Shown here: in pieces, positions 16,180-56,836 of the stretch
How positions within the stretch are numbered: position 1 is the stretch's first letter
Layout: every line of letters starts with the position of its first letter
Assembly: GCA_030998015.1 (NCBI GenBank)
Contig: JARWMV010000018.1
Location: 62,001 to 126,000, forward strand
Direction: 5' to 3'
DNA: 64,000 bases
From: Ceratorhiza oryzae-sativae
Taxonomy: Eukaryota > Basidiomycota > Agaricomycetes > Cantharellales > Ceratobasidiaceae
Translations under genes and position numbers: made by a program
The notes under the pieces: generated by a model
What the model saw: the letters and a program-made list of their open reading frames with translations, nothing else
The model's database searches: none
Told to the model about the DNA's origin: nothing

Positions 16180-17550
16180 CTATATCCCAGCCACAGTTGA
16201 TCCTACATCCCCGAAACGAATGTTTGAAAACGTGACTCGGTAACCTCCCGGAATATCTTGAGGTTGGCCTCCTAAGCGAGGGCACGGTCCCCGCGCGACA
16301 CCCGGCTTCGATGGATCGGCCTTCAATGGGTATATGCTATCTAACCAGCGCATATTTCCTACAGGATCATCCCGCACCGACATTGCCAGTACCATCCCAC
16401 TCTCGAGAGCTCGACTCAGACTTGTGAACCCTCCTTTGGCAGCGAATACATTCTCGTCCCCAAATGCAGCCTTTTGTGCAGTGCAAAACTCCTCGGTGAT
16501 GGAGTCATAAGGGGCCATACCCGGAATATTCGCCTTCGAGTTTTGGATCACCTGCCCGTTCTGTACGTACAGACGTCGAATCTCGGATAGTTGGCCGGCC
16601 GAAGTCCCATCCGATGTGATGAACCGAGTTATCACAGTAATCGTCTGGTTGGTATCAACCGTGCGCCCAGGGCCGTAGAAGGTTTTGTTGCCCATTCGAT
16701 ATGAGTTGAAGTCGCACCCAGCGGCATCGCAGAAGCCAGATGAGCAGTCTGAACCGGAGCAACGAGTCTGGCCAGTGGTTGTGCACGGTTGCGCGATGTA
16801 TGCGGCAGCGGCGGTGTTGGATTCCCATACATCGATATCGGTACAACATGAGCCGTATTGACCCGTGCCAGAACTATCGACGTCTAGATTAGCCTGGTAT
16901 ACTATATTAGTTGTGATTTCACCCCAATTCGGAACATTCCTCACCTCGCCATTGATAAACTTCAGGTTCCTTGGACACTGAGCATCGCAGTATCCGGTAC
17001 CAAACCTTGCGCCGGCCCTATTGCCCGAGTACTTGGCCATTCCCCCATCAGCATCCATCCCAGTGAAATAGAGCGCTCCGCTCAGTCCGCACGGCAGGTT
17101 AGAAACATCGACGTCAAACGCAATCTCCTGGTTCTTGAGCTTGAACCTTTGATACGTCCTGTCGTCCGACAGAAGGTAAATTCGGCTCCCTGTGCCGTAA
17201 CTGGTTGTAGATAACTTGAGAGTGACCGAATTTCCGCTCGTCGATATACCGAATGTGTTCTTATAGTCTACTCCCTCCAATGCACAATTCTTGGCGCAGA
17301 TTTGGGGATCGGAGCAAATTGCAGGGTTCCACGAGTCTTCCGTGTAGCAATTGGTATAACCCTGAACCGAGTGAGCCCAGCGCCAGTTTGAGTCAAGAAC
17401 AATCTTTCCTGAGGCCTGGGTTACACAACCCCCGGACCTTGTACACTTTTGCCATGTGAGGACAGGATGGATCTCGGCTACAAGATCACCGGCCTGCTGG
17501 CCAATTACAGAGCTCAACAGAAGCAGAAAAGGGAGTGTTTTGAAGAGCAT
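16180..17550 (-). CDS. GH7 cellobiohydrolase-like secreted protein
   Basis: Glycoside hydrolase family 7, usually a reducing-end cellobiohydrolase or endoglucanase acting on crystalline cellulose outside the cell. The start at [10 protein letters not shown] (17550) gives a clean signal peptide ending near VIGQQ; an in-frame ATG at 17577 is less likely. About 439 aa after splicing, catalytic domain only, with no C-terminal CBM1. Family landmarks: HPVLTWQKC near the mature N-terminus, [24 protein letters not shown], many conserved Cys. Oddity: the GH7 active-site motif is normally E-x-D-x-x-E; here it reads TDIDVWE, so the position of the nucleophilic Glu is Asp while the second Asp and acid/base Glu are kept. 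A 51-nt intron (16894-16944) keeps the frame open if retained. It is the intact member of a tandem pair; the partner at 19860-21262 is decayed. Confidence 0.85.
16894..16944 (-). other. In-frame 51-nt intron in the GH7 gene
   Basis: Donor GTGAGG at 16944 and acceptor CCAG at 16894 in the minus reading. Removing it joins FINGE to ANLDV, matching the GH7 consensus NG(Q/E)ANV. Retaining it would insert 17 residues without a stop. The paralogue has a 52-nt intron at the same place (20601-20652), which supports it being real. Confidence 0.8.
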
Positions 17551-17577
17551 AGTCGTATTGAATGGTTTTAAGTCCAT

Positions 17578-18484
17578 TAACCGACTGGTTGATTTATATC
17601 CAAGGCGGCGAATTTCCGGACCTCTTCCTCTCGTCTGCGGATCAAATCACGGAACCGAGCATGTCTCCCGACAGCGCACATAATCTAGCCCTGGTCTAAC
17701 CCAGGCAGTCCCACTCGCACCTACGGGGAATTGAGGACATATTAATACTGCCAAGAATGATCTCAGTGCAGAATTCTCGACAGGTGATCGTGCCTGAGCC
17801 GGGTTAGAACCTGAAATCTGTTGCGACGGCGGTGTTTGACAGTGGTGAGAATCCTGTCCGAATCTCCACGGCGTAGATTATTCCAGGTATAACTAATTAA
17901 GAGCGACGCCCTGGTGGTGTGGTTCAAGTTTGTGCACCCCACCTCACAAATCTAGAAAGCAGCATCCCTAGGTTTTTCCGGAGCAAGGCCGTGTAGCATC
18001 AGAAGGATTAGACAGCACAGATATCGGAAGTGAAATTGATTTCGATAAGGTGGAGACGATTTTGTCCAACTGAGTAGTTATGAATCAAATCAATGCTGAC
18101 GTATGCACGGATATCCAATCTGTTCAAGTAGCTTGGGCCGGTGTCGACCTCGAATTTGGAGGGAATTGCTGCTAGTACACATAGCGTACATTGCTTTGCC
18201 TGATTCGGCGCCTCGTTTTTGCAGTTCATGCGCAAAACCGGGTAAGTGAGTACAATTGGATGAGAGCATAACTCACACAGAAAATTTTACCGACGCATGT
18301 AAGCGATCAGCACTGTACAATCAATCCACACAAATCCGCCGTAAGTGCCATAAGAACCGAAATCCAACGCTCATGACTTTCTCACGCTCATATGCATGGA
18401 CACGCTATCGCAACCACTGTTCTCCCCAGTTTGCATTAACCGCCGCAGCTTCGAGCTATCAACACACCAGATTTTGCCCTTGAT
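17578..18484. other. Intergenic: GH7 promoter region
   Basis: Divergent spacer between the GH7 gene and the F-box remnant. A run rich in A/T at 17580-17600 (tgatttatatcc) could act as a TATA-like element about 40 bp upstream of the GH7 start. No gene seen; the short open frames at 18008-18235 and 18256-18483 show no domain. Confidence 0.35.
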
Positions 18485-39932: not shown

Positions 39933-40452
39933 GAACGCGTAAAATGTAATATAGAGTATTCTACATTGAAGAGACCCCGGCGAGAAGTCGGGCCTCGTCA
40001 CGCATTTGTATGTTGCCGGTGATCATCGGAACTGTGGCGGGAATGAGCCGGCGGGACGAGGATGATGAGTGTGTGACGTCACCTGGCGGCCGCTGATCAA
40101 GCCAGAACCAGCATATAAGAGAGCCGCCATGGGACGACAACGGTGACCCGACCATCGCCACTTCTGTCGTACGTGCGGCCCAAGACGTTGATCTGATACC
40201 CGCTGACGACGACGCCAGATATTCAAATGTCGCCACTACCGCCTCGCCAACCCGGTGTACGTATTGCCCATTTGTCATCGCGGTCATGCTCATGACGTGA
40301 AAGGATAGAGAGGAGACCACGATCGGCACCGCTAGGACCCCGGAATCTGCTTGGCTCGCTCTTTTCCTCGACTTTCCCCCTCTCGGTTTTCCACTCTGTC
40401 TCTCTCAATCTACTCCCTCTGCTTTAGCCTCTGTCTAGTTCTAATCTTGTGC

Positions 40453-42387
40453 ATGGCCTCTCGAAGGGCAACCTCCTCTATGCTGTCCTCTGGTCCAACA
40501 ACCCGAGGAACAACAACCAAACAGAAGACTCTGCCACCTGCTGACCCTGCGGCCCCTGCAAACCCCCCTGCCTCTGTGCCTTGCCCCCTCTCTGGCAAGC
40601 CAAAGATGTTCCTGACCTCAGTTAACAGAGCCTGTAGCTTCCTAAGGCAGCAAAACCTCCTAGACAACAAAGACGACATCATCACCCCTGGTCTCATCCT
40701 CAATTTCCTCTCACACCTAGTCAACCGCCCAGATGTGTCATCCAATATTGCCGCATACATCGCATCCATCGCCCTTGTCCTACTGCCCGCCCTCAAGCTC
40801 AGGCTCAGCCAAGAAAGCAAATTATCTGAGTTGACAGATAAGATAGACAAAGTTCTGGAAAAGGGCGAAAAGTCCAGTGAGTCCATAGAGCACCCTGACC
40901 TCACCAAGAAGCTCGCCGGACTGGAAAATAAGCTTGGTGCCCTTACCAAGCTAGTCAAAAAACTGCAGGTTTCTACAGATGTGGCCGAGAACGCGGCCAC
41001 AGAGACTCAAAAGTCCATGTTTGAGCTGCACCAGATGCTTGTGACAGATGGTGCAGCTGGTATGGACGCTCCGGGCCCCGTGTTGCCCAGCCCGCCTACC
41101 TTCGCCGCCGCCGCTAGGGGCCCGCCTGTAGCTTCTGTTGACGCATGCACCAGGCCCCTATCGGCCAAGCAGGCAGTCACTTTGGCAAAGCGAACACATT
41201 CGCAAGGAGCGTGGATCACCATCCAGCCCAAGACAAAGACAGTCAGCAACCAACTTGGCACTTGCTCAGCCCGTGACCTAGTTGAGAGAGCACAGACAGC
41301 CGCAGACAAAATGTGGACTGCACTAGCCCCCACTCTGGATTTTGTCAGCAAACCCTGCCCTATCCTTACCTTCCACACCGCCCGAGTCCTAGCAAAAGGA
41401 GGAGTCCACTTCGACATGGCAGACCGAGCTCAGGCAGCTTTCCTGAGCCATGCAAGCATCGCCTCCGCCTTTGAGAAAGCTTTCGGGGATGTCACCTGCG
41501 ATGGCCAAGGAGCGGTGGTTCTACTTCAGTGTGCCCCAGTCAAGTGGACCCTGGAAGACCCCTCCTCCCTTTGCACGCTAGAGAGGGAGAACCAGCTCGA
41601 ACATGGCACCATTGTCTCAGCAGCCTGGGGTAAAGCCCCTCACCTCCAGAAACACAACCAGCTCACCAGCACCGTCAAACTCTGGCTCCGGTCACAAAGG
41701 ATAGCAGACAACCTCATAATCCTTGGAGGTCAGCTCCTGAATGCCCCAGTGCTCTTCCGGATGCTCTGGCAAGAGCCAACCCAATGCTACAAGTGCCAGA
41801 AATACAGACACAAGGGGGTGAAATGCAAGGCTCTCTACGACACCTGCAGTGGATGCAGAGGCCCGCACAGGGGAGGTGACTGCGATAAGCCTGAGGCCTT
41901 GCACTGCGTTAGCTGCAAATTGGATGAACATTGCTTGTGGGACCGGAAATGCCCTGTCTTCAAGGTGGAGCTGGAGAAGCTCAAACGACATGCTGGGTCC
42001 AACTCCCTCCTCTACAACACCATGCGTGAAGCAGAGCTCACTGCCCCCCAATCCCGCCCGATTTTCCATATGCCCCCCACTGTCGGTGAAGCCCGGTCCT
42101 CCTTTGCCACGGGTAGCAACCTCTGCCCAGTGAGGAATGCGAAAACTCACCAATCCCATCTGACTTTCACGGCTCGCGAAAAGGCTACAGCTGAAACCGA
42201 AGTAGAAACTGCCCCTGCGAACTTGAGCAATTGTCCTTTCCCCCTGCACATCTCAAGCCCTTTGCACTTCGCGATCCCACCGCCCAGCCCGCACTACCAG
42301 CTCCGCAACTTTGATCCTGCCCTAGACTCCCCTGCCTCGACAGCCCCATCCTTGCCATTGTCAGCCTCCCTCACCATAATTGCGTAA
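40453..42387 (+). CDS. LINE ORF1 (gag-like, CCHC zinc knuckles)
   Basis: Nucleic-acid-binding protein of a Tad-clade LINE. Start set at MASRRATSSML; the frame is open further upstream to 40351. Coiled region near residues 130-190 (LTDKIDKVLEKGEKSSES; LAGLENKLGALTKLVKKLQ), a central domain with conserved Trp, then three Cys/His knuckles: CYKCQKYRHKGVKC, CSGCRGPHRGGDC and CVSCKLDEHCLWDRKC. The last few residues overlap the ORF2 start in a TAATG arrangement. The frame is intact over its whole length, unlike ORF2. Confidence 0.8.
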   Translation: MASRRATSSMLSSGPTTRGTTTKQKTLPPADPAAPANPPASVPCPLSGKPKMFLTSVNRACSFLRQQNLLDNKDDIITPGLILNFLSHLVNRPDVSSNIAAYIASIALVLLPALKLRLSQESKLSELTDKIDKVLEKGEKSSESIEHPDLTKKLAGLENKLGALTKLVKKLQVSTDVAENAATETQKSMFELHQMLVTDGAAGMDAPGPVLPSPPTFAAAARGPPVASVDACTRPLSAKQAVTLAKRTHSQGAWITIQPKTKTVSNQLGTCSARDLVERAQTAADKMWTALAPTLDFVSKPCPILTFHTARVLAKGGVHFDMADRAQAAFLSHASIASAFEKAFGDVTCDGQGAVVLLQCAPVKWTLEDPSSLCTLERENQLEHGTIVSAAWGKAPHLQKHNQLTSTVKLWLRSQRIADNLIILGGQLLNAPVLFRMLWQEPTQCYKCQKYRHKGVKCKALYDTCSGCRGPHRGGDCDKPEALHCVSCKLDEHCLWDRKCPVFKVELEKLKRHAGSNSLLYNTMREAELTAPQSRPIFHMPPTVGEARSSFATGSNLCPVRNAKTHQSHLTFTAREKATAETEVETAPANLSNCPFPLHISSPLHFAIPPPSPHYQLRNFDPALDSPASTAPSLPLSASLTIIA

Positions 42388-43653
42388 TGTCTATCACACC
42401 TGAACCTCATACACCAGCACAGAATAATGTTATCATTTGGCAATTGAACACGAACAAGTTGGACACGGCGCAAATAGCATTTAACCATGACCCCAATACC
42501 CTTAAAGCCACTATAATCGCCATACAAGAACCATACCTGGACCACCTTGAATTGTTGCGCACCCCAGTGGGATGGCGGCCACTATACCCATCGACCCACC
42601 GCTCCCCAAACGCCCCTAGATCTAGAGTCTTCTTTGCAGTGAACCCAAGGACCTCCACAAACGAGTGGGAACAAGTGGAATCCCCATGCCCGGATGTAAT
42701 TGCCCTTTGCATTAAATCCTTGATGGGCCCAATTTTGGTGGTCAACGTCTATAACCCATGTGACAAAAACTCCTTGCTCCCCCATGTACAGAATCTGCTT
42801 AAAGCGGCCCAACCGGAAGAGCACTGTGTCCTCCTTGGGGATTTCAACTGGCACCACCCTGAATGGGATGAAGCCAGAAATGCTCATCTCTTCACCACCG
42901 CAGCCTTAGATCTGGCCCAGCCCCTACTAGATATAGTAGGCAAGTTCGGGCTAAAAATGGCCCTCCCCAGAGACATCCCAACACTCAGGTCCACCTCATT
43001 GGACAACCTCACAAGACTGGACAATGTCTTCATGTCAGCCTCACTCCTCGAAGCACTAGTTGCATGTCAAGTTGTCCACAAAGCACCACCGCCCTGTACC
43101 AACCACTTCCCTGTCTACATGGAATTCAACACTTCAGCAAGGTCCGCGCCCAACGAGTCCAAACGTAACTTTTCAAAGGCAGACTGGGAGCTATACCGAT
43201 CATGCCTAGCAGTCCATCTGTCTGGTCTGCCTGGTCTCAGATACATACATGACCAAGAGGCGCTGGACACCTGAGTCAAGGGTATTAGGGAGGCAATACA
43301 ACGTACTGTGGCAGAATCGGTCCCCCTGCTCCACCTGGACATGAAATCCAAGCGGTGGTATATCAAAGAACTGAGGGTGCACCGGCAAGAAGTCAGGAAG
43401 CTAGCTGGCTTGTCCTACCGAAACCAATGGCACGCAGGAGCCGAGGTCCACAAAGACTACCAGGTACAAAGAAACAAGTACAAGCAGGCTATGCAGGATG
43501 CACGTCGGCAGCACTGGGAGGAGTTCCTGAATGGGCTAGACGAAGATACAATGTGGATAGCGGCTGGGTACCTTAAGGAGGGGACCTCTGATGGGGGTTG
43601 AGCAAGAGTCCCCAACTTGAAATACACATGCCCAGATGGATCCAAGGCGGTAG
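42387..43653 (+). pseudogene. LINE ORF2 5' part: AP endonuclease
   Basis: Starts ATG at 42387 overlapping the ORF1 stop. Endonuclease motifs: IWQLNTNK at the start, IAIQEPY (catalytic Glu), LLGDFNWHHPEWD (Asp and Asn), RLDNVFMS and TNHFPVY at the position of the usual SDH motif. In-frame stops at 43272-43274 and 43599-43601. The frame then runs into the chromovirus insertion (GGTAG at 43649-43653), and reading resumes after 54213. Confidence 0.8.
43649..43653. repeat. Target-site duplication GGTAG (left copy)
   Basis: Exact 5-bp match with 54214-54218, flanking the chromovirus LTRs. Confidence 0.9.
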
Positions 43654-44322
43654 TGTCGTGACCCTCTGGAGGCTCCCTTGTGGAGCACTTAAGTAGTGGC
43701 TGCGTTGACGGTTTGGTGCTATGGGGTATGTATTGGGTGTTCTAGTTACAGTGTTTGCTATGGTCTATGGTGGTTGACAAGATAAAGCAAGCTGAGGCGT
43801 CCAGTCTTGCTTTATCCTCCTTATATATACCTGTGGCTGCGGTGGCTGCGGACATATTATCTAAGCACACTCCGCAGTAGGTGTAGGTTATGTATAGTAC
43901 TATGGGTTAGGTAATTGTTTGTCTTAAGTTTGTGCGGCTCCGAATCTTATAGAGCCGCGCGAGGTCCGAGGGGTAGGCGCTGAGGTCACGTGATCCTGCC
44001 GTAAGCGCCAAGATCACGTGACAACTCGCTCCTCGCTCCAAGTAACATGGGAGAGAAATGCTGGAGCGAGTTCAAGGTAACCACCGTAAGCGCTGAGGTC
44101 ACGTGACCCTTCTGTAAGCGCCAAGATCATGTGACAACTCGCTCCTCGCTCCAAGTAACAATGGAGAGAAATGCTGGAGCGAGTTCAGGGTAACCACCGT
44201 AAGCGCCGGCTAAGCGCCGAGGTCACGTGACCTTGTTTATGGCTTGTTTCGCTTAGGAAAAATGCCATAAATCTGTAGAAATATTTGGTTGTTTTGTTAT
44301 GTCCATTTGACGGGTCATAACA
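43654..44322 (-). repeat. Chromovirus 3' LTR (669 bp)
   Basis: Plus-strand limits TGTCGTGACC...GTCATAACA. Carries two copies of a 113-bp internal repeat (about 43974-44212) containing GGTCACGTGAC palindromes; the other LTR carries three. Confidence 0.9.
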
Positions 44323-44336
44323 TTATCCCCCCCTTT
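44323..44336 (-). promoter_or_regulatory. Polypurine tract
   Basis: Minus reading AAAGGGGGGGATAA immediately before the 3' LTR start, the usual second-strand primer site of LTR retrotransposons. Confidence 0.8.
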
Positions 44337-44388
44337 GGACATGTCTTGGGGGACCTCGAGACATGGTTTAGTTCCTTATGCAAAAGGA

Positions 44389-44513
44389 ATCTCATGCACC
44401 AAGGAGGTTAAGGGCGCTGGACTCGAACCAACAACCTTTCGGCTGATTCAGTATCGTTTGATGAGGTCAGGCTGAGTCAGGCTAGACCCCTTAACCTCTC
44501 CGTTACATGAGAT
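44389..44513 (-). other. tRNA-Leu-like sequence inside a long hairpin
   Basis: The minus strand carries a perfect B-box/T-loop (GGTTCGAGTCC with a GTTGG/CCAGC stem), a CCGAAAGG variable-arm-like segment and a TGACTCAG...CTGAATCAG arm reminiscent of an intron-containing tRNA-Leu. It is enclosed by two complementary pairs: ATCTCATG/CATGAGAT and GGTTAAGGG/CCCTTAACC. About 19 extra bases between the T stem and the outer stem rule out a normal tRNA. It lies 52 bp inside the polypurine tract. Confidence 0.35.
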
Positions 44514-44631
44514 TGTTTTTCTTTTCTTTGTTGTGGAGGTTATTTAGGGGTGAGGATTTGTCTGCTTCTTCTCAGAAAGCCCCAACTGTTTGGATGGGCA
44601 TAGCAGAAGTTGTACAGTACCATAAATTATT

Positions 44632-45918
44632 CTAAGGGAATACAAAGAATGGCTTTCCTCCTGCATACACCCATTCCACATTTCTTGATACCCATAGGTC
44701 CCCTTCTTCCCCCTCTATGTCTGACCAACATTTCATGATTGCCGACCAGCTATTTCCCAGAATGACTGTTGGCCATACCTTCATCGATTTCACATGCGCG
44801 TACCTGCCTGTGAAGTCCGCCTCGTACTGGCTCAGGGCCTTGAGCGAGTACTTCCCATTCGACTGGACCATGTCATCCAGGATCCAAATGTCGGCATCTT
44901 CCGACAAGTTGCCCATATTCCACACATTGCACATCCGGCTGTGGCAGCCCTTGGATCGTGCATATGCTGTTTTCCCCGTTCCAGTTTCTCCTTCTATCAC
45001 CAGGATGCGATGGCGCACCCCTCTTCCCTTCTTCTCGACTTCCTCAGCAAACCATCTGTCTGCTCGGTCGATGTGCTCCCGGTCTTCCGGGACCTCTAAC
45101 TCCACAGGGATTGCAGGCATGCAACCCCGGTCTTCCTTGTATGTGTACTCGGCATATGCTTGTACCAAGTTCCACGTCGTCACCATCTGGAGGGGGTGGA
45201 GGCGCTTGAACGCCTGGTAGTACTCCTGTTTTGTTGCTGAGGCAACAATCTCTGTCCCATCCTCCAAGTCTGCCTCCATCCTTGACCTTTTTCCACCCTT
45301 TCCCTTTACCAAAATCTCCTCCAACCTTTCCAAGGTCAGGTCCCCTGCCATCAGGTCCTCTATCTCCTCGCCATTAGCTCCAACGTCCTTCCAAAGATAG
45401 TTGAAGGCATCCCTTGCTGGGTTGCCTCCTGGTCCGTCCTTGAGGTCCTTCGGCAGGATGTTGGGGTGTTGCCCCTCGAAGTCCCAGAACCGGGTGTTCT
45501 GGGTGTTCCAGCTGCCCTTCTGCTCCTGACTGATGGAGAGGGCGTGGACATGGAGGGGCCGGGCTGGGTCGTAGTTTGGTTCCTCAGGGTTGTGGCGTTC
45601 CACCACTGCCAAAGTCGCCCAATGATTTGGCTGTTGGTGGCAGAACGCCTTGTATCAGGCGACAAGCCCACTTGAGGGCTGATCGTGTAGCTTCGACCAG
45701 GTTAGCAGCACCGCCCTGGTCTGGACGCGGAACCGAGGGGCCGGCACGGTTTCGGTCAGCTCTTTGGACCCTCGATCCGTCGGCGTAGGCTGCATAGAAG
45801 CGGGTGAGGGGGCTCGGCTTGATACCGAGGGCGCTGGCGATGGCAACGCCGACCTCTGCCCTTCGCTTGATCCGCTTGGCTGGGGTGTTGCCGCGTTCGA
45901 TCCATTTCCGCTTAGCAT
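44632..45918 (-). pseudogene. CRESS-DNA virus Rep-like gene (one in-frame stop)
   Basis: Resembles replication-associated proteins of circular Rep-encoding ssDNA viruses (geminivirus/genomovirus type), which nick and unwind rolling-circle replicons. One reading frame holds, in order: a Ser/Pro-rich N-terminus from Met 45918; motif I RAVLLTWSK (about 45717-45691); a TGA stop at 45655-45657; HUH motif II HVHALSI (about 45552-45532); motif III Tyr in YLWK (about 45399-45388); SF3 Walker A GETGTGKT (about 44991-44968); Walker B WILDD (about 44886); motif C VILGNS. The stop lies between motifs I and II; apart from it the frame is open for about 1.29 kb and no frameshift is needed. All expected nuclease and helicase motifs are visible. 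It lies inside the chromovirus, downstream of pol, same strand. Whether it is domesticated cargo or a recent viral insertion cannot be told here. Confidence 0.75.
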
Positions 45919-46520
45919 CGTTTACAGTTTTAGAGGTACTTGGGGACTGGGAAGAGAGCATGAGAGTGCAGGTTATCTTGGGCCTTGTGCTTGTCTATAT
46001 AAGCTGCAAGGTCTGTTCTAATTGTCACATGACTCCATCTTGCATTTGTTGTGATCACATGACCTTATTTTGGTGATGATGCATCTCCGAGGGGTGCCCT
46101 CCCATCCGTTCCTCCGCGTCGGCCTTGATCCTCGCTACGCTCGGGGCCTCCGCTCCCCCACTTCAGTCGGTGCCCCCTCTCCGACCCCTCCGGTAGTTAG
46201 GGGATAGCGTATATTCACGTGACTAGGCTAGGTCATGTGATTCCTGTGCTTTGTTGTTTGTTTTCTGGCATGTGGTCACGTGACTAGGCTAGGTCATGTG
46301 ATTCCCGTGCTTTGTTGTTTGTTTTCTGGCAGGTGGTCACGTGACTAGGCTAGGTCATGTGATTCCCATGCTTTGTTGTTTGTTTTCTGGCAGATGGTCA
46401 CGTGTCTGTTGGTGTCACCTGACCAGTCCTTGTTTTGATGTTTGTGCAAGTTATTGTGTTGCACTGTGATTTTTTAATGTTTGTGGTTTTGTTGTTTTCC
46501 TTCCTCATCCCGTCTTTACT
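45919..46520. other. Divergent intergenic region with 61-bp tandem repeats
   Basis: Lies between the Rep-like gene (-) and the Cys-rich gene (+), so it would hold both promoters. A GC-rich block at 46080-46200 precedes the 61-bp repeats (46215-46410). I looked for a geminivirus-type TAATATTAC nonanucleotide in a hairpin and did not find one. Confidence 0.5.
46215..46410. repeat. 61-bp minisatellite, about 3.2 copies
   Basis: Units start at 46215, 46276, 46337 and (partial) 46398. Each unit contains TCACGTGACTAGGCTAGG followed by TCATGTGATTCC and a tgctttgttgtttgttttctggca tail. The CACGTG core recurs in the LTR repeats of the same element. Confidence 0.85.
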
Positions 46521-47312
46521 ATGCGTGTTATTTCCCTTAACTACAATCCCCTTGACTGCACCTGCTGGTCTCTCCCTGAGGGGGAGTACTGCGCCTACTG
46601 TGATGCTGTGTGCGACGCCTCCCTTGAAGACTTCTATCAAGGTGTTGGGGACTGGTTCTTCTGTGGGGTGCCAGGTATGTGTGTTCGTTCTTTCATTCTC
46701 ACATAGCTAACTTGTTCTGTAGAAGAGCGCATCCTCCTTGATGGTCGGGCCCATGAGGCCACCCTTGAGCGTGTCTGGGCGCTCGTTGATCAGGACTACA
46801 AGTCCTTTGAGGAGCTCTCACCAGGCTGCTCTTGCCAATTCTTCGAGGAGGGCTCTGCTCCCTTGTTTGATGAGGCTTCGCCCTTTGCAGTGTCTGGTTC
46901 TGGGTGTTTCCAGAACTACATGGCCGACTTCCCAGGGGGGGAGGCTCCTTGGCTGCAGCCCACTACCTGGTCAGTTGTTCAGACCAATAAGAAGGATAAA
47001 GGGGCAAGAAGCCCTATACCCGGCCCCTCAAGGGCAAACGTAAAAATAGAGAGTAAAAGAAATGTATTAAGTTTGGTGTGTAAAAGAAAAATAAAACTCT
47101 TATACATTCGGGAGACAATTTGTGGGAGGCAAAGTGGTCATATGGGGGTTGGTTCCAACAGTGGCACCTCCTCCAGAGCTTCGACAAGCTCGTTTTCCCC
47201 CACTGGTCCCAGTCCTGTTTGGCTTCCTCCGCAGCTGGGTCCAGGGTGGGTTCCTTTATTTCTGGCTTGGCTTCTTCCTCAGCCACGACCAGTGATTCTA
47301 GGCTTGATGTAA
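46521..47312 (+). CDS. Cys-rich protein, antisense cargo gene with intron
   Basis: Exon 1 46521-46674, intron 46675-46722 (GTATGT...TGTAG), exon 2 from 46723 in a frame open to 47312. Product starts MRVISLNYNPLDCTCWSLP with a cluster of Cys (CTCW, CAYCDAVCD, FFCG), then an acidic stretch (EEGSAPLFDEASP) and a basic Lys/Arg-rich C-terminal part (KNKKDKGARS-like). The encoded frame overlaps the convergent 382-aa ORF beyond 47014, so the true 3' end may be earlier. It is transcribed against the retrotransposon. No known domain is recognised; a capsid or accessory role is only a guess from its position opposite the Rep-like gene. Confidence 0.5.
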
Positions 47313-48162
47313 GGCTTGTCATATCAGTGTCGTAATTGGTGTTTTTGTTTGGGTGCACCTTCACCCAATTTCGGAAGTCGATCATGTTTGCCTGCTTTGT
47401 CCTGATAGCAGTAAACATCTCATCAGTGGTAGTTGCTTCGAGCAGTCCCACATACGGTGCAGCTGGTGTCAACTTCCATTCTTCCAGCAATGCCTTTGCC
47501 CGGCGCTCCACCTCCCAGTCCCCTCCGTCTGCCATTTGACCTGTGGCCCTCCTCTGTTGTCTTGCTGCCTTGGTCACCACGTCGACTGTTGGTCCCACAA
47601 TATTGTCGACGACATACATTGGTGTTCTTAACAAGGCGTTTCTTGTTGTTGGCTTCCGGCTTCCATGCCATGTCAGGACCCCTAACCTGGGATCCAGGTA
47701 CTTGTCATCGTCAATCCAGTTCCTTTCATCCCTTAACTTCTTTGGGATGTATACTAGGTTAGCCCCTGGCAACAGTCGTTCAGCGTACCTCTGGGCGTCT
47801 TCCACACTGAAGCAGTACATCCCTGGTTTAGGACAATTTTCCCTGCCAGGGTAGGGTGCTGGCCGCCTGGTGGTGGGTGGCTGCTGAAGTGGGGCCACCT
47901 GATTTTCAGCAAGTGGGGTGTAACGGTTGGGATGTGCAACTGGGTGAGTGACGAAAGGCATGTTTTGGGGTTTCGCAGGTGTGTTGTGGTGCAAGTGAGG
48001 TGGTAGAGCAGGCTCTGGACTCTCTTGGGTATCCTGGATGGCTCCCTTTTTAAAGCTTTCCAGATCCTCGTTTGGTTCTCTTTGGCCTGCCTTTCGAGTC
48101 ACCTGAGTGCTGACTTGTCTTGACTGGCATTGGTGCATCTGGTAAGCGCCTTTGCAAGTCAT
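47014..48162 (-). CDS. Unknown 382-aa ORF downstream of the chromodomain
   Basis: Overlaps the end of the chromodomain frame by about 110 nt and reads in the sense of the retrotransposon. N-terminal third is Pro/Gln-rich and polar. The central part looks folded: YCFSVEDAQRYAERLLPGA, LVYIPKKLRDERNWIDD, TWHGSRKPTTRNALL, DIVG-like VVDNIVGPTVDVV, then VERRAKALLEEWKLTP and WVKVHPNKNTNYD. The C-terminus is acidic, then hydrophobic. No family is recognised; extra ORFs of this kind are known in some fungal gypsy elements, often after integrase. A later Met (NMPFVTHPV...) could be the real start. Confidence 0.5.
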   Translation of the reverse strand: MTCKGAYQMHQCQSRQVSTQVTRKAGQREPNEDLESFKKGAIQDTQESPEPALPPHLHHNTPAKPQNMPFVTHPVAHPNRYTPLAENQVAPLQQPPTTRRPAPYPGRENCPKPGMYCFSVEDAQRYAERLLPGANLVYIPKKLRDERNWIDDDKYLDPRLGVLTWHGSRKPTTRNALLRTPMYVVDNIVGPTVDVVTKAARQQRRATGQMADGGDWEVERRAKALLEEWKLTPAAPYVGLLEATTTDEMFTAIRTKQANMIDFRNWVKVHPNKNTNYDTDMTSLTSSLESLVVAEEEAKPEIKEPTLDPAAEEAKQDWDQWGKTSLSKLWRRCHCWNQPPYDHFASHKLSPECIRVLFFFYTPNLIHFFYSLFLRLPLRGRV

Positions 48163-48412
48163 TTAGAACCTCTTTCATGTCAGCAAACTTGCTGGCACGT
48201 TCCATTGTGTCTTCTATTGGGTCGTAGCCCTTCCATCTGATTTGGTAAAACAGCTCGCCATTCCGCCATTCATAATTTGCAATGTGGTCCACCTTGTATT
48301 CCTCCTCTCCTTTTTCCGTTATGATTGGTGGTGGTTTGGCCTGCCTTCTTTGGAAGTCTTTATCTTCTGTGAATGGCGGAGGAGATTTACATGGAATACA
48401 TTGTGTACACAT
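48050..48412 (-). pseudogene. Chromodomain at the integrase C-terminus
   Basis: Contains EYKVDHIANYEWRNGELFYQ followed by RWKGYDPIEDTMERA, a canonical chromodomain with aromatic cage positions (Y, W, Y), which in chromoviruses directs integration to marked chromatin. It is one frame off the preceding integrase frame (48319-48750), so a frameshift separates them in this copy. Confidence 0.85.
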
Positions 48413-49494
48413 ATGGTTTTAGGTAGGTCCAGGCGATATGCATGGGATGAGATCTTTTCTGTGATTTCAAAGGGCCCCCCTTTTCGGTTGTCCAGTTTCT
48501 TGGAGGGTCTCTTGGACGAGAGGTTTGTTAGGAGCAGCCAAACCTTGTCTCCTACCTTGAATTCCCTCCCTTTCTTTTCCATTTGTTGGTGTAATTCCAT
48601 TGAGGCTCTTGCCTCATCCCATACCTTTTCCATTTGATTACGCATGTTGTCTGCAGCGGGTGCCTCAGATGGTTCTTCTCTCCTCTCGGACAACCCATCT
48701 TGGGTTTTTTCCATATACTGTTTCAAATGGGGTTTGTCCTGTTGTAGCATTTACGTGGTTGTTATGGCAGAATTCGGCAATGGGTAACCATTTTACCCAA
48801 TCATCTTGTCTATAATTGCAGAAGGTTCTTAAGAACCCTTCTACCCATTGATTTGTCCTTTCCGACAGACCATCTGTTTCTGGATGGAAAGCAGTGGAGA
48901 ATCTGGGCTTTGTCCCAATTCCTTTGTATAGGGCTTTTAGGAATTGGCTGTTAAAGGTTGGCCCTCGGTCTGAGACAGTGGTTTCTGGGGTCCCGTGATG
49001 TCTCCATACTTCCCTTATGAATATTTCTGCCAGTTCTTCTGCATTGGTGCTCTCCAGACATGGTACAAAATGGGCCTGCCGGGAGAAGCGATCTACAACT
49101 GTCAAGATACTGTCGTACCCCTTTGAGACAGGTAATTTGACATGAAATCATATGCGACATCTGCCCATGGTTTCCATGGGATTGGTAAGGACTTCAGGGG
49201 AGTGCCTTGTTTGTGTCCTTTGCTTCTTTGACACGTTTCACAAGATTCCACGTATCGGTTTACTTGGGCCTTCATTCCTGGCCAATAGTAATCCCTTGAT
49301 AGTAATTCTAGTGTTCGGGCTTGTCCCTGATGACCTGCCACTGGGGCGTCATGGCACTCCTCAAGGAGACTCAACCTCAAGTCCTTGTCATCTGGGATGT
49401 AGAGCCTATCGTCATACCTTAATAGGCCCTCCTTCATTTCATACCGTCTAAATTCCTTCTGTACTGAGGGGTAGTTGTTCTTTATTTGCCACAC
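48319..49494 (-). pseudogene. Chromovirus integrase
   Basis: Zinc-binding HHCC part in 49494-49102 (HDAPVAGHQGQA...CETCQRSK), then the DDE core in 49105-48665 (MTVVDRFSRQAHFVP; SDRGPTFNSQFL; ETDGLSERTNQWVE) and the GPY-like C-terminal part in 48750-48319 (FKVGDKVWLL; RKGGPFEI). Each segment sits in a different frame, which indicates indels or missing bases. Confidence 0.85.
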
Positions 49495-51459
49495 TCAGCC
49501 TTAAGGATCTGATAGATTCGTCTTCTTCCTGAGCTTCTTTAAGCTCTTCCCAGAAATTCCCCTGTACTTCTGCCATGAAACCTATGAACCTTTCTTCTGG
49601 AATCATGATCTGTGGTTCCATAGGGGTATCCCCATGGTCGCTCCTTCTGGAAAGGGCATCTGGCTTCTGTGAGAGTTTCCCTGGTCTATACACAATCTGA
49701 AAATTGAAGGGTGCCAGAGTGAGATACCATCTGGCATGCCTTCTATTCCACATCTGGGCATTTTGCCAGTACTGGAGGTTCCTATGGTCAGTGTATATCA
49801 CTATAGGTTCCTCTGTCCCTTCTAAGTATAACCTCCAGTGCTCTAAGGACCTAACAATTGCAAGCAACTCCTTGTCGTAGGTGTCATAATTTTTCTCTGG
49901 TGGGGTGAAGCTCTTCGATAGGAAGGCAATTGGATGCAATTGGTTGTCATCACCCTTTTGGCTTAGTACCGCCCCCATGGCCACTCCTGAGGCGTCGGTT
50001 TCCAGTATGTATGGCCTGTTCGGGTTTGGGTGGATCAGGACTGGTTCTCTTGCTACTGCTTCTTTGATAGCTTCAAATGCTTCCTGTTGTTTTCTTTCCC
50101 ACAGGAATTTGACATCTTTTTGGGTGAGATCTGTGAGGGGTTTGGCTAAGGTACTAAACTTCTCTATCCACCTTCTATAGAACCCCACAAAGCCTAGGAA
50201 GGCTTGGACTTCTTTTACTGTGTTAGGTTCTGGCCATTCTAGAACTGCCTTTACCTTTTCCTTTTCCATCGATATCCCTTCTGGGGATATGACAATTCCA
50301 ATGAAGCTTACCTCCTTCACAAAGAACTGACACTTGTGTGGTTTGAGGAAGAGGTGGTTTTCCCTCATTCTTCTTAACACTTCCCTGACATGTTGTACGT
50401 GTTCTTCCCTGTTTCTGGAAAACACTAGTACATCGTCCATGTAGATTACCACATAATCGTCTATTATATCACGGAACTTTTCCATCATGAACCTGGTAAA
50501 GGTTCTTGGTCCTTCTTTTACTCCGAATGGCATGACCAAGCATTCAAACTGGCCTTCTCCTGTCCTGAAAGCTGTTTTCCATTCGTCTCCCTCTTTTACC
50601 CTGATGTTGTTGAACCCCCATCGAACATCCATTTTTGAATAGATGGTTGCATCCTTCAGTCTCTCAATCAATTCTATTTGGATTGGAAGTGGAAACCTGT
50701 CTGGCTTGGTGATGTCATTCATCTTACGGTAGTCACTACCAACCTAAGCCCTCCATCTGCTTTGTTCACATAGAAACAGGGTGCAGCTACAACTGACTGG
50801 CTGGGCCTTATTTTCCCGTTTCTTAGTTCCTCCTCTAGGTACTCCCTGAGCGCCTTTGTTTCTGCTGGCGACATACTGTACCTCTTTGCAGGCTTTGGCA
50901 GCTCCGCTCCCTCGATCAGGTCCATTTTGAAGTCTAGGTTACCTCGGTGGGGTGGAAGTTCTCGGAAACCTTCTTCCCCAAATAGGTCTTCAAAATCCCT
51001 AAATTCTTCTGGGATTTGTAGGCTTTCACTTGCTGCCCTTGCCTTGATTTCGTCTGGGTATGAGATGGTAAGGTCTTTCCAATCTATGATAGGTTCTGCT
51101 TCTTCAAGCCATTCTTTCCCTAGGACTATGTCTGTGTCACCTAGGGTCATTACATAAAGGGAGCATTTTAGTGTCTTCCCTTCCACTTCGATGTTTAGTT
51201 CTGCCCTTTCTTCTATGGCATCCTTGATTTCATTTCCATCAATGGCCACAATTGATTTCTTGTGTTTGAGGGGAGTGGTTGGAATCCCTTTTTCCCTTGA
51301 ATAGGCCTTATCGATGAAGTTGGTTGAAGATCCTGAGTCAATCAGCGTCTTAGCTGGTTCCATGATTCCCTCTACCGTAGTGTATATTATTGATTGATTA
51401 CTAGACTTCTTGAGGTAACATACATCTGCGGTAGGGGTTATATTGGGGTCCTCCAACAT
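49448..51459 (-). pseudogene. Chromovirus protease, reverse transcriptase and RNase H
   Basis: Protease active site LIDSGSSTNFID in 51459-50719, followed by the start of RT (YVNKADGGLRLVV). The frame shifts by one base near 50722 and RT continues from MNDITKPDRFPLP with FGVKEGPRTFTRF, VIYMDDVLVFS (catalytic YMDD) and FLGFVGFYRRW. RNase H motifs ETDASGVAMGAVL, DKELLAIVRSLEHWR and YTDHRNLQY follow. Apart from the frameshift the catalytic residues are intact. Confidence 0.9.
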
Positions 51460-51476
51460 GGAAGTGGTAGGACCAA

Positions 51477-53274
51477 TTAGTTTTCCGACTCAGAGCTGCT
51501 TTCTTCCTCAACTTGTCTGCTGGCCTTCCCTTGTATCTTAGCTTTGTCGTAGGTCCACTGGCCTCGGCACTCCTTCAGGACATGCCCTGATTTACCGCAT
51601 TTGATACAGAGTCCTTCTTTCCTTCGCCTGTCCTTTTCACTGTTTGGTATCCTTACCATGTTGTTGGTTTGGGTATTCCCCTGTTTGCCACTGGTCCCTA
51701 AAGGCTTGTTCCCCCCTTGTTTGTATTTTGCTGGTGCCCAGGTTGAATTTGATGAGTTGCTGGTCCTTGTATTCATTTTCTGGTTTGCAAACTGCATGTC
51801 ATCCATTTTGCAGGCAAAGTCAATTAATTGGTCTAAGGTATATGATGGACCTTCAGCCTCATTTGCCAGTACTTCAATCCTTAAGATCTCTTGTCGTACT
51901 TCGGGTTTTAACCCTTCCCTGAATTGGTCCTTGAGTGCTTCCTGGTTCCAGTCTACCTCTTGGATCAGGATCCGGAATTGGGTAGCATACTCCAATGCAC
52001 TCTTGGTCTGTGTTAATTTCCTTAGTTTCCGGATGGTCTTTTCCTTTATGACTGGGTCATTAAAAGCATCCAGGAATCCCTTCCTGAAATCCTTCCAGGA
52101 TGCAAGAATACCTGTGTGTTCGCCTGCTAGTAGTTTCCGGCGGTAAGGTTGTGCCCAGTTTGCTGCTTCCCCATCCTCCATGTTCATTAGCACAGCAGAT
52201 ATCTTTTTTCGGTCATCAAAGGCTGATTCGTCATAGTCAGCAAAGAAAAGTTCCATGCTGATTATGAAGTTCTCTGCTTCCTTCCCCTTTTTCCCATTAA
52301 ATTTGCTGGGTCTCCCTAGTCTCGCCTCCTTAGGAGTGTGGTTTGCAGCAAGGGTAGGTTGGTTTGCTTGGGATGGAGGTTCTGTTCGGGTCTTATTGTG
52401 GACTCAGCCTGGAAGGTTCTTCCCAGAAAGGGTGTTCGTACTGGGGAGGCTGAGGGGGATTGTGAGGGGCTTCCTATGACCACCCTAGTTCTTCCCCTGG
52501 TTTCTTCTGTCCTTTCCCTTGGCCTTCCTGCTTCAGTTGTTTTCCGGAGCTCATTTCCTAGATCGGTTACCCGTTGTTCTAGTGCGATTAGGATCTCCCC
52601 TGTGTTTTCGTTTTCTTCTCTAAGCTTTCGAGCTTTCGCTCTTGCATTCCCAGTACCCGGTTTATTTCCATGGAGATGTCCTTTAATTCTTTTATCAGGT
52701 TCCCCATTTCTGCTTTTAGGTCGTCCTGGTTCTTTGCCACATAGAGGACATTTTTGTTGGATGTTTCCATTGACCTTACCATCCAGTCCACGTTTCCTTC
52801 TTGTCGGGTTAGTGATATTTGACACTGATTTATACCTGTGATTGCCTTTTCTAGTTCCCTATGATTATTGTCTCTAAGTTCCTTGAGCCCCGCCCTGATG
52901 GCCGTGGCAATGGTGTGAATAGGGTTGGCAGTGGCTATGGTTCCGGGACCTGGCTGGGGTTGTGTCCTTGCCTCTTCCGCCAAGGCTGTGCCTTGTTCGT
53001 ATATGGTTCGGGTCATATCTTCTACCTCATCCCTCTCTGGATTTGAGATATCTTTTGGGTCTGGATTTATCAGGTGAATTGGCGGTTGAGGGCTGCGGAG
53101 TGGTATTCCCCCTATTTCCCCTCCCAGGATGGGGGCCCGAGTGGGGTTGGGTTGAGCCACTGGTCGTGGGTTTTGTGGCAACCCCCCTGGCATTCCTTGG
53201 AGGGTCTCATCTGGGTTACCTTCCGCCTCTGGGGAAGCAATGGGTTTGGGTGATTGTGGCCTACTATTTGCCAC
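51477..53274 (-). pseudogene. Chromovirus gag
   Basis: Three overlapping frames: 53274-52588 (Pro-rich start MANSRPQSPKP and a coiled part), 52825-52316 (RREEN-type charged region) and 52256-51477 (capsid-like MELFFADYDESAFDDRKK; FRKGFLDAFNDP; then zinc knuckle CIKCGKSGHVLKEC). Joined order matches a gypsy gag, but two frame changes interrupt it. Confidence 0.8.
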
Positions 53275-53431
53275 TCTGCTTTGAGATCAAGTTTGTGGTC
53301 TCTGTGACATAGTTTCTTTGTGTTCTCTTATGTATCACAGGAGTTAGCTGGTTTTCTCGTGTACTCAGCCCTTAGTATCTGTGCAGTATACTTATGTTCG
53401 CCACTAGTTAAGTTAAGAGCTTGCTTTATAA

Positions 53432-54213
53432 TGTTGTGACCCTCTGGAGGCTCCCTTGTGGAGCACTTAAGTAGTGGCTGCGTTGACGGTTTGGTGCTAT
53501 GGGGTATGTATTGGGTGTTCTAGTTACAGTGTTTGCTATGGTCTATGGTGGTTGACAAGATAAAGCAAGCTGAGGCGTCCAGTCTTGCTTTATCCTCCTT
53601 ATATATACCTGTGGCTGCGGTGGCTGCGGATGTATTATCTAAGCACACTCCGCAGTAGGGGTAGGTTATGTATAGTACTATGGGTTAGGTAATTGTTTGT
53701 CTTAAGTTTGTGCAGCTCCGAATCTTATAGAGCCGCACGAGGTCCGAGGGGTAGGCGCTGAGGTCACGTGATCCTGCCGTAAGCGCCGAGATCACGTGAC
53801 AACTCGCTCCTCGCTCCAAGTAACATGGGAGAGAAATGCTGGAGCGAGTTCAGGGTAACCACCGTAAGCGCTGAGGTCACGTGACCCTTCTGTAAGCGCC
53901 AAGATCACGTGACAACTCGCTCCTCGCTCCAAGTAACAAGGGAGAGAAATGCTGGAGCGAGTTCAGGGTAACCACCGTAGGTGCTGAGGTCACGTGACCC
54001 TTCTGTAAGCGCCAAGATCACGTGACAACTCGCTCCTCGCTCCAAGTAACAATGGAGAGAAATGCTGGAGCGAGTTCAGGGTAACCACTGTAAGCGCCGG
54101 CTAAGTGCCGAGGTCACGTGACCTTGTTTATGGCTTGTTTCGCTTAGGAAAAATGCCATAAATCTGTAGAAATATTTGGTTGTTTTGTTATGTCCGTTTG
54201 ACAGGTCATAACA
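53432..54213 (-). repeat. Chromovirus 5' LTR (782 bp)
   Basis: Same limits as the other LTR, but 113 bp longer because it has three, not two, copies of the internal repeat (about 53753-54110). Followed by target duplication GGTAG at 54214-54218. Confidence 0.9.
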
Positions 54214-54218
54214 GGTAG

Positions 54219-56836
54219 CAAACGACAATGTGAAGAAGAGCAAGATTCTACTGGACGCCTTCTTCCCCCCCCCCTCCGCCAGCACCTTCATGCGAACCAC
54301 AAAGGGAGAAGGGTCACCCAGAGGTCCAAGACCTACCTGACATCCAGCTTAAGGACATAGTGGAAACCATACTTGAAATGAAGCCTCATAAAGTGCTGGG
54401 CCCGGACGGACTCCCAGCTTGTGTATACATCCAGGGAGTACATTTATTAAAGCCACACCTCCTCCCAATCTTCTGCATATTGCTCCAACTAGGCATCTAC
54501 CTGACTGAGTGGCGTCACTCCAAAACAGCAGTCCTCCGAAAGGGGGGCAAACCCAATTATGGTATCGCAAAGGCCTACCACCCCATTGCTCTCCTGAATG
54601 TTATCAGCAAGGTTCTATCCTCCTGCATTGCAAAACGTCTCAACTCCCTTGCAAAGACCCATAACTGGATCCCGTCCCACCATTTTGGCAGCCAACCAGG
54701 GAAAACAACTTTGGACGCGCTCCACTTCCTCACAAAGACTGTAAAGGACGCCTGGGCAAGGGGCCAAGTCATGTCAGCACTCTTCCTCAACGTCAAAGGG
54801 GCTTTCCCCATGCACACCCGAAGAGGCTAGCCGAAAATATGCAGCTGCTAGGAGTCCCAGAGGCGTACATCAACTGGATGTTGGCAAAGCTGGACAGACG
54901 GACAACTTGCCTTACCTTCAACAATTTCACATTGGTAGCGCTCCTGGTACTAAATGGAATTGACCAGGGATGCCCGCTCTCAGTTATTTTCTACTTGATC
55001 TACAACAGCCCACTGGTGGAGGTCCTGAGCCCAAAAGCGAGGGAGCTATGCATTGCGTACATAGACAACATTACTTTTGTAACCTGGGGGCCTACTTTTG
55101 AGGACACCCACAACAGCCTGGTGGACATGATGACAAGGAGAAAAGGGGCTCTTGCCTGGTCCAAGTCTCACAATTCCACCTTTGAACTCAACAAAACCGC
55201 GTGCATCGACTTCTCCCTCAATAAAGCCCTCCACTGTCCGAAACTGAAAATCGGCGCCCAAGTGATCACCCCGGTCTTCTCACATATCTTACTTGGGGTC
55301 GCCCTGGACCAGGACCTCCGCTGGAAGACGCAGTGCAACAACGCGCTAGTGAAGGGGATGAATTGGTCGACCCAGCTCTCAAGGATTGCCAGGATGTCGT
55401 ACGGGGCCTCAACATCAGTTGCTCGCCGCCTATACCTGAGTGTGGCAGTGCTGTGTTTCACTTATGCTATAGACATCTGGTATGCACCAGTCGTGCTGAG
55501 TCACCAAGAGGGGGCAAGAAGCTTGGGGTTGGTAGGATTTGTGAAGAGACTAGCTAGGATACAAAGCATGGCAGCCCGAGCCATCCTTGGCACGTTACCT
55601 TCCACCCCAACACACTCCCTCAACGCCCATGCCAAACTCCTCCCAATGCACCTCCTACTCAACAAAGTGTGCCTCCAAGCTGCCGTCAGATATGCCTCAG
55701 TCCCTACCGAACACCCCCTCTCCAAGGCAGTCGCCTGAGTTGTCAACCGAGGCCAGAAAACGCACATCCCTCCCCTCCAACGCATAATGCTTTTCTCGGG
55801 CTGCAACCTGACAAACTTTGAAAGAAGGGCTATTACGAAACACCCCCCCCTCACGACAGCCAACCCATCCTTCCCATCCCGCATTCAAGGAATCATGGAT
55901 GTACGCACAGACCAGTCAGATCTCCAGATCTTTGCAGACAGGTCCCGTTCGGAGAAAGGAGTCAGGGCTGCAGCAGTAGTGATGGAACATGGAAGGGTCA
56001 AGGAGGTTTCAGGCTTTCGCCTTGGGACCCAGGAGAACCATTCAGCGCTGGACGCCAAGGTTGTGGCTGTCATGCTAGCACTACACCTCCTTAACTCAAA
56101 CAGGGGGGTAACAGAGGCCACTGTTTTCTCGGACTCCCAGCTGGCGATCAAAGGAATCCAGGGCGGTGTCATCAGTGTCGTGCCGTGGATGCTGAAATCC
56201 GCTAGGCGAAGCCTCTCTGCAGCCAGGAGGAAGAACAGAGGCACGGAAGTCCACCTACAATGGTGCCCAGGGCATTCGGGAACACTGGGCCAGGAGCAAG
56301 CAGACTCGGAAGCGAAACTAGCAGCACGGGGAAAATCCTACCCCAACTCCGCCATCCCGAAGGCGCTCCTCTTGCAGCACCCTCTGACAAATCCAGAAAC
56401 CTATAAAAGGCACCTGAAGGAGGAAAACAAAGTGGCAGCCGTACAATTCTGGAAAAACACCCCTGCTGGCATCAAATTCCACCAACGATATGCCCTCCTC
56501 TCTCCCTCGAATTTCCTAGCCCACACCCAAGGCCTCCCTAGGTCAAGGGCCGTCCTCCTCTTTTGCCTCATCACCGGTCACGTACAGCTCAACCAGCACT
56601 TGCACCGCATTCAGACCAACAACTCCCCTGACTGTGACCACTGCGGGGGCTCTCCAGAGACCGTCGCACACTTCCTTCTACGCTGCCCCCACTACGCCAC
56701 CGAAAGATACATCTATCTAGAATCTGCCAACCTTGGCCCGCTTTCCCTAGACTACCTCTTCTATGCCTTGGAGGCCCTCGCGCCCCTCTTCGACTTCCTC
56801 AGGGCCACAGGTTGCTTCAAAGACTCCCTCTGCTAG
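54219..56836 (+). pseudogene. LINE ORF2 3' part: RT, RNase H and CCHC
   Basis: Continues the LINE after the chromovirus. RT: LGPDGLPAC, NYGIAKAYHPIALLNVISK, SQPGKTTLDALHF, LFLNVKGAFP (catalytic Asp of FLDVKGAF replaced by Asn), IDQGCPLS, and AYIDNITF where the YxDD box reads YIDN. RNase H in the frame from 55787: IFADRSRSEKG, FSDSQLAIKGI, WCPGHSGTLGQEQAD. The C-terminal zinc motif CDHCGGSPETVAHFLLRC ends near the stop at 56836. Stops at about 54338, 54828-54830 and 55736-55738 break the frame. Confidence 0.85.

Follow-up and report, generated by a model that had tools for sequence, protein, structure and literature searches.

A Ty3/gypsy chromovirus lineage of Ceratobasidiaceae that carries a rolling-circle Rep-like gene

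A geminivirus-like Rep gene is amplified in the genome of the fungus Tuber melanosporum, where it is carried by a transposon present in dozens of copies (Liu et al. 2011, PMC3198968). According to the available text of that report, this transposon is bounded by 37-bp terminal inverted repeats, contains two transposase ORFs and lacks obvious target duplications, and other geminivirus-type Rep-like genes in fungal nuclear genomes are endogenous CRESS insertions that mostly number one to few per genome (Liu et al. 2011, PMC3198968). Among retroelements, the Terminons of bdelloid rotifers include a gene for a rolling-circle Rep among their accessory functions, and the available part of their description suggests circular intermediates; these are giant, endonuclease-deficient, Penelope-like, telomeric elements of up to 40 kb in an animal (PMC6431247). 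Bdelloid rotifers also contain LTR retrotransposons with a captured enzyme gene as ORF3 after pol. In the available text on those elements, ORF3 encodes GDSL and DEDDy genes, and the terms "rolling-circle" and "Rep protein" have 0 occurrences (PMC5408684). LTR-element expansions are described for Rhizoctonia strains JN and LY in the accessible part of another report, where Rep is not mentioned (PMC7884421); from the RhiJN/RhiLY tags, we take these strains to be the source of the AG-Ba genomes. A CRESS-type Rep inside an LTR retrotransposon was not found among the titles and abstract openings listed by searches of an open-licence library.

Here we analyze a locus of Ceratorhiza oryzae-sativae within a 64,000-nucleotide stretch of DNA (the window; contig JARWMV010000018.1 of assembly GCA_030998015.1, positions 62,001 to 126,000). 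The minus strand at 43654-54213 contains a complete Ty3/gypsy chromovirus, with an LTR pair, TG...CA ends, a target-site duplication and the gypsy gene order (Table 1). The two LTRs are 98% alike (656 of 669 aligned positions equal, with the 3' copy extended 7 bases beyond its ends for the alignment). Pfam searches placed the domains in the order gag/Ty3 capsid, protease, reverse transcriptase (RT), RNase H, integrase and chromodomain; the N-terminal gag-region ORF is named by position and had no significant Pfam family match. We take the primer-site arrangement to be the self-priming of Tf1-type elements and the chromovirus subgroup to be Tf1/sushi-like.

Like other fungal Ty3/gypsy chromoviruses, this element has LTRs, a gag-PR-RT-RH-INT-chromodomain series, 5-bp duplications and an LTR-complementary primer site. 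Unlike them, it has two additional genes, ORFx and a Rep-like gene, located downstream of pol and ahead of the 3' LTR, in the "env" position, and its U3 contains arrays of hairpins and repeats with an octamer that is found again upstream of Rep. The order 3' of pol is ORFx, 61-bp repeats, a conserved non-coding block, Rep, the polypurine tract and the 3' LTR, so that Rep lies between the polypurine tract and pol within the LTR pair and its GGTAG duplication, as the preliminary description of this DNA had claimed. The chromovirus is inserted in a LINE-like element on the plus strand (window 40336-43271 and 54665-56833), the flanks of which contain an endonuclease ORF at 42315-43271 and RT-like and RNase H ORFs at 54665-56833. 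Elsewhere in the window, a glycosyl hydrolase family 7 gene is found on the minus strand at 16183-17646 (E 3.3e-175), which fits a plant-degrading fungus.

Table 1. Positions of the chromovirus features within the window
Feature	Position	Strand	Remarks
5' LTR	53432..54213	-	782 bases; three hairpin units in U3
U3 hairpin unit 1, 5' LTR	54027..54076	-	10-bp arms; loop with TGTTAC
U3 hairpin unit 2, 5' LTR	53914..53963	-	
U3 hairpin unit 3, 5' LTR	53801..53850	-	
Primer site ATAAAGCAAGCT	53418..53429	-	complementary to 12 nt of LTR (element 643-654)
N-terminal gag-region ORF	52588..53274	-	named by position
gag, Retrotrans_gag / Ty3_capsid + zinc knuckle	51477..52256	-	Pfam
Aspartic protease region	50719..51459	-	RVP_2 3.2e-10
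Reverse transcriptase + RNase H	49448..50722	-	RVT_1 6.8e-30; RT_RNaseH 1.6e-36
Integrase core	48665..49105	-	rve 2.9e-06, 27.9 bits, below cut-off of 32.6 for this piece
Chromodomain, 3' of integrase	48050..48412	-	4.6e-06; 26.9 bits against cut-off of 25.1
ORFx, second accessory ORF	47014..48162	-	homologues in Ceratobasidium sp. AG-Ba and sister copies
Three 61-bp repeats upstream of Rep	46215..46407	.	contain TCACGTGA / TCACATGA
Conserved non-coding block upstream of Rep	46070..46259	.	77-78% identical in sister copies L040, L041
Reading frame overlapping Rep N terminus	45584..45961	-	resembles N terminus of several AG-Ba gene models
Rep-like gene, 429 codons	44632..45918	-	HUH motifs I-III, Walker A/B, motif C
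Imperfect inverted repeat with presumed tRNA-like B-box GGTTCGAGTCC	44382..44520	.	between Rep and polypurine tract
Polypurine tract	44323..44338	-	adjoins 3' LTR
3' LTR	43654..44322	-	669 bases, TG...CA; two hairpin units in U3
U3 hairpin unit, 3' LTR	44136..44185	-	
U3 hairpin unit, 3' LTR	44023..44072	-	
Target-site duplication GGTAG	43649..43653 and 54214-54218	.	directly outside both LTRs

The minus-strand Rep frame had been described as carrying its nuclease and helicase motifs in the order of a CRESS-type Rep, and this is confirmed, in two pieces that are split by a TGA at 45655-45657. The piece at 45655-45918 terminates in ...RAVLLTWSKLHDQPSSGLVA, and the piece at 44635-45654 contains HVHALSI, YLWK, GETGTGKT, WILDD and VILGNS in order. 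The whole series reads RAVLLTWSK, HVHALSI, WDFEG-HPNI, YLWK, GETGTGKT, WILDD, VILGNS; HUH motifs I, II and III occur in order, and the SF3 Walker A, Walker B and motif C are all present, in forms that we take to be those of the CRESS HUH/SF3 series. A regular expression for the whole series, fitted to this very protein, matched the uninterrupted Rep of copy L012 and 9 of 10 near-full-length homologues (the exception is P0024), and 0 of 200,000 shuffled versions of the L012 sequence. Homologues (49 by protein search, 58 by profile search) are Ceratobasidium and metagenome proteins only. Walker A, Walker B and the second histidine motif show little or no variation across them, and homologues of 427-429 amino acids exist in other species.

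When 40 of these homologues were scanned against Pfam, Gemini_AL1_M was reached in 10 with E 0.001 and 19.5 bits, below the curated cut-off of 24, and Gemini_AL1 in 1 with E 0.23; unrelated families reach E 0.0048 in the same scan. The Rep pieces of the window matched no Pfam family at E 0.1, PDB profile searches with Rep gave no Rep match, and nothing relevant was found in profile searches of PHROGs, NCBIfam and PDB. Two AlphaFold models derived from homologue alignments had pLDDT values of 36.5 and 39.1, too low to use. Because the profile match is only borderline, the identity of the protein rests mainly on the full conserved motif set, from which it is very probably a divergent geminivirus/genomovirus-like Rep. 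A scan of viral contigs with the Rep alignment produced 30 pattern matches, none of them confirmed; a degenerate HPNI-type pattern was present in 23 contigs, and none of these, at 8.1-156 kb, has the size of a CRESS virus; tblastn of plasmids gave 2 matches, both at chance level. Helitrons are recognized by a long RepHel protein that combines a two-tyrosine Rep with a Pif1-type helicase. The 429-amino-acid frame, the single tyrosine of YLWK, the SF3-type motifs and the lack of a Pfam helicase match rule out a Helitron (RepHel length from the available text of PMC6431247).

A 125-codon frame at 45584-45961 on the minus strand overlaps the Rep N terminus in a different reading frame, and several AG-Ba gene models (P0008, P0011, P0012 and others) have its AAYADGSRVxRAD stretch at their N terminus. 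This layout may be likened to geminiviral C4 over Rep, with weak statistics: variable sites in element positions 8296-8476 number 15, 31 and 25 per codon position, a mild excess. A larger positional excess was discounted, as changes private to the window copy had been counted many times.

Homologues of ORFx are limited to 6 proteins, found only in Ceratobasidium sp. AG-Ba, plus the sister copies described below. No known domain was identified in ORFx (the best match, RE_XamI, has E 0.0037 in one homologue, below cut-off), and no capsid gene, which would mark a complete endogenous CRESS virus genome, was recognized beside Rep, as the neighboring ORFx has no convincing family match. The dN/dS of ORFx is 0.459, with in-frame stops in 3 of 4 copies, these 4 being the only ones out of 21 with a 90% match. 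Between ORFx and Rep, the non-coding block retains 77-78% identity in sister copies L040 and L041, where the Rep-LTR stretch has 68% and the INT-chromodomain stretch 73%; this G-rich, possibly structured block is thus better kept between the families than the coding parts. Sequence similar to the repeat at 44382-44520 occurs at the same place in L040 and L041. No tRNA or structured RNA was found by ARAGORN in the whole window or by Rfam in 43500-54300 (E up to 1).

We searched the host genome (48.8 Mb) for Rep and for RT, obtaining 120 Rep matches from 119 scored of 225 candidates and 102 RT matches from 99 scored of 1104 candidates. The host therefore contains at least 119 Rep copies. RT lies upstream of Rep on the same strand within 8 kb in 57 of the 120 Rep matches, and 63 are without a scored RT. 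We fetched the 20 best-scoring copies after the window's own, a non-random sample. In these, the 3' LTR directly follows Rep in 20 of 20, and pol or its 3' part precedes Rep in 19 of 20 (L017 is the one without). Of nine of these copies examined at both ends, six had perfect 5-bp duplications (CCAGT, TGATT, CATAA, CAGGG, CACAA and ATCAG); two had no matching duplication, and the 5' end of one lay outside the fetched sequence. The shared place before the LTR, together with target duplications of their own, indicates that the unit transposed several times with Rep inside. Other copies of the element thus carry Rep, as the preliminary description had asked, and an assembly misjoin is excluded. 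From these results, we conclude that Rep spreads with the element by ordinary retrotransposition, as its LTRs and 5-bp duplications show.

The same comparison was made starting from RT, using 99 of the 102 RT matches, with three second pieces left out. The 43 of 99 RT copies without a scored Rep do not represent Rep-less elements, because only 119 of 225 Rep candidates were scored; Rep DNA was present downstream in 7 of 9 such copies that were checked, running through to the LTR in L029, L032, L036 and L038 and partial in L035, L037 and L039. The other two are interrupted, one by a Ty1/copia-like ORF (judged by eye) and one by another Ty3 pol. A tenth copy (C48) was outside this check, as the contig ends there. 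At G000:C3:357.5-364.4 kb and C17:36.7-43.7 kb, the distance from the LTR hairpin motifs to the Rep downstream of them is only 4.4-5.3 kb and no RT was scored, and these two loci are possible shorter, non-autonomous Rep-bearing derivatives.

These data also bear on whether Rep belongs to a DNA transposon of the Tuber melanosporum kind that lies within the retrotransposon and moves independently of it. In favor of such a nested unit, Rep is preceded by an upstream region of its own, and the ORFx and Rep segments have mosaic histories (see below). Against this, no inverted repeat of at least 16 nt brackets Rep in 44326-48100 (one imperfect pair lies wholly on one side), the LTR directly follows Rep in all 20 fetched copies, and the target duplications are outside the LTRs, making a nested transposon highly improbable. 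A Tuber-type element was in any case rejected, as neither terminal inverted repeats of at least 16 nt around Rep nor transposase ORFs were found.

We also traced three RT copies with 63-65% identity to the window element downstream (a fourth, at 67%, is at a contig end and was left out). Two of these sister copies, L040 and L041, contain INT, the chromodomain, ORFx (37-39%) and Rep in the order seen in the window, with Rep 69-72% identical in amino acids to P0001; L042 contains ORFx and a remnant of the Rep N terminus. The Reps of L040 and L041 are both interrupted by stops. These two copies are 94.8% alike over 5.65 kb, and their likeness ends close to or at the presumed end of the LTR, so that they resemble separate insertions. 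The presence of ORFx and Rep in the same order in sister copies places Rep in the lineage before the families split. In both L040 and L041, GLVA in Rep is followed by a 61-nt intron-like stretch, GTAAGC...CATAG, at a site without a break in the window family, and the metagenome protein P0024 has 24 extra residues at this site. The putative 61-nt intron was lost or gained later; the simplest reading is a loss, which would have come about by reverse transcription of spliced RNA.

The preliminary description had noted only one lesion in Rep, and this holds for the window copy (the TGA at 45655-45657). The full 429-codon frame is open in 9 of 21 copies, 12 have at least one stop, and 8 have a TGA at the same codon as the window copy. 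Across the genome, 31 of 120 Rep matches are free of internal stops, with 429 or more codons open. With 8 of 21 copies stopped at one codon, many copies do not need a Rep of their own.

Selection on Rep was estimated from 21 copies over the 340 codons after the TGA codon. The overall dN/dS is 0.142, and it is 0.068 for the 54 pairs with dS > 0.2, a value that rests on 3 copies compared with 18 and so in effect on one lineage split. Pairs with dS < 0.10 have dN/dS values of 0.33-1.27; at dS 0.06-0.10, dN/dS is 0.33 for Rep against 0.37 for RT (9 RT copies). Over all 429 codons, the Rep value is 0.244 (0.181 at dS > 0.2), and that of integrase is 0.586 (11 copies of very low divergence). Differences from the window copy in C-terminal Rep number 19, 13 and 93 at the three codon positions in L023, and 63, 52 and 157 in L041. 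Low dN/dS at depth with high dN/dS at shallow divergence is the pattern of genes that would be selected in source copies and free after insertion. The earlier proposal that the gene is either recent or under selection can be answered with both: a recent burst, and a gene selected on deeper branches (dN/dS 0.068).

The history of the family is mosaic. Its pol is 98-100% identical (L017 apart), ORFx exists in three variants (98-99, 86-88 and 72%), and the 3' half of Rep together with the LTR falls into two lineages. These separate segment histories suggest template switching within the chromovirus family.

The stops in 12 of 21 copies and the dN/dS of 0.33-1.27 in the closest pairs are what one would expect if Rep had been captured and copied along without function, decaying as it went. 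Such passive carriage is nevertheless highly improbable, given the dN/dS between Rep lineages, the third-position excess, the open 429-codon frames, the retention of Rep in sister copies and the proteins of 427-429 amino acids in other species. Based on the anatomy of the element and the signs of selection, we put at about 0.93 the probability that a Ceratobasidiaceae chromovirus lineage has Rep as one of its resident genes, maintained by selection. The presence of Rep within an LTR element, as first described, therefore stands, and the word "cargo" used for it is corrected to a resident gene of the retrotransposon lineage. For retroelements at large, a precedent exists, as the available text on rotifer Terminons places Rep in one (PMC6431247). 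Compared with endogenous fungal Rep insertions, the Rep described here moves within an LTR element, exists in many copies and is subject to selection.

A selected gene that many amplified copies carry with a stop could also act in trans, against host silencing, against competing ssDNA elements or by driving a replicative cell state, and selection of this kind would not need each copy to be intact. Geminiviral Reps do act on host cell-cycle proteins. We consider a trans function quite unlikely, as the cis repeats shared by the LTRs and the Rep upstream region point instead to the element's own DNA.

These repeats are part of U3, which is composed of 113-bp units in which direct TCACGTGA repeats surround a hairpin, AACTCGCTCC...GGAGCGAGTT, with TGTTAC in its loop. 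The TCACGTGA octamer has 14 occurrences in the element, 11 of them in the LTRs and 3 ahead of Rep, and none in the remaining 53.4 kb of the window. Exact matches to the hairpin motif number 526 in the genome (245+281), against 0 for the reversed control, and one lies at most 1.5 kb downstream of Rep in 12 of the 27 Rep matches on contigs C1-C18, the window's included. LTR copies contained 145 hairpin matches on both strands, 110 with a perfect 8-bp stem, and none in L018 and L036. In six diverged LTR copies (L023, L026, L028, L032, L038 and L042), the hairpin blocks are 90-98% identical, and the repeats beside them 74-97%, mostly 74-88%. LTR positions 471-782 are also 90-98% identical in most of these six (79% at 471-600 in two), so later parts of the LTR are often equally conserved and the conservation of the hairpins is not unique. 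In the sister copies, hairpins are 82-88% identical, repeats 72-81% and other LTR parts 79-84%, and two stem pairs of the hairpins are lost through point changes.

An array of hairpins and repeats of this kind looks like an origin with iterons, and we regard it as a candidate Rep origin. CRESS origins contain TATTAC, which is close to the TGTTAC of the U3 hairpin loop; the element contains no TATTAC, and TGTTAC is common, with 17 occurrences in the rest of the window. CACGTG is a common site for host bHLH proteins, and the hairpins and repeats may be plain U3 enhancers for such a protein. If Rep uses these sites, it would be made in the nucleus and act on the element's own DNA, binding repeats of the TCACGTGA type both in U3 and ahead of its own gene, and nicking the U3 hairpin with its TGTTAC loop. 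From the nick, LTR circles or other cDNA that has not integrated would be copied in rolling-circle fashion, and the copies could serve as extra templates for transcription or integration. Enhancer repeats would look alike, TATTAC is absent and stem pairs are lost, and for these reasons we propose only tentatively, at somewhat less than even odds, that Rep acts on the element's DNA by binding, nicking or both. That the element is a hybrid replicon, combining LTR integration with Rep-started rolling-circle replication of LTR circles at tandem hairpin/iteron origins that evolved in U3, we consider unlikely.

The restriction of one octamer, within the window, to U3 and the region upstream of Rep would also suit a Rep that is a DNA-binding regulator, setting transcription through TCACGTGA in U3 and in its own promoter with no part in replication. 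CRESS Reps repress their own promoters by binding iterons, which counts for this reading, but the nuclease and helicase motifs kept in the homologues go beyond the need of a pure repressor, and we judge it rather unlikely. A stronger form of the hybrid replicon, in which circles replicate long-term like plasmids and reintegrate occasionally via integrase, would share the anatomy described above, and the available text on the Rep-bearing Terminons suggests circular intermediates for them (PMC6431247); we hold it to be very unlikely.

Retrotransposons are conventionally classed apart from rolling-circle replicons, and a chromovirus with a selected Rep shows that they can be stably merged. This chromovirus lineage has carried a CRESS-type Rep since before its two families split, under selection and through repeated transposition, which provides a route for the replication genes of ssDNA viruses to spread in a genome by reverse transcription. 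The intron-bearing sister copies raise the question of how a spliced gene travels in a retroelement genome. LTR circles are usually regarded as dead ends, and the element is a ready test of whether they can be productive. One element may thus combine two copying systems, one RNA-based and the other a viral-type DNA replication gene.
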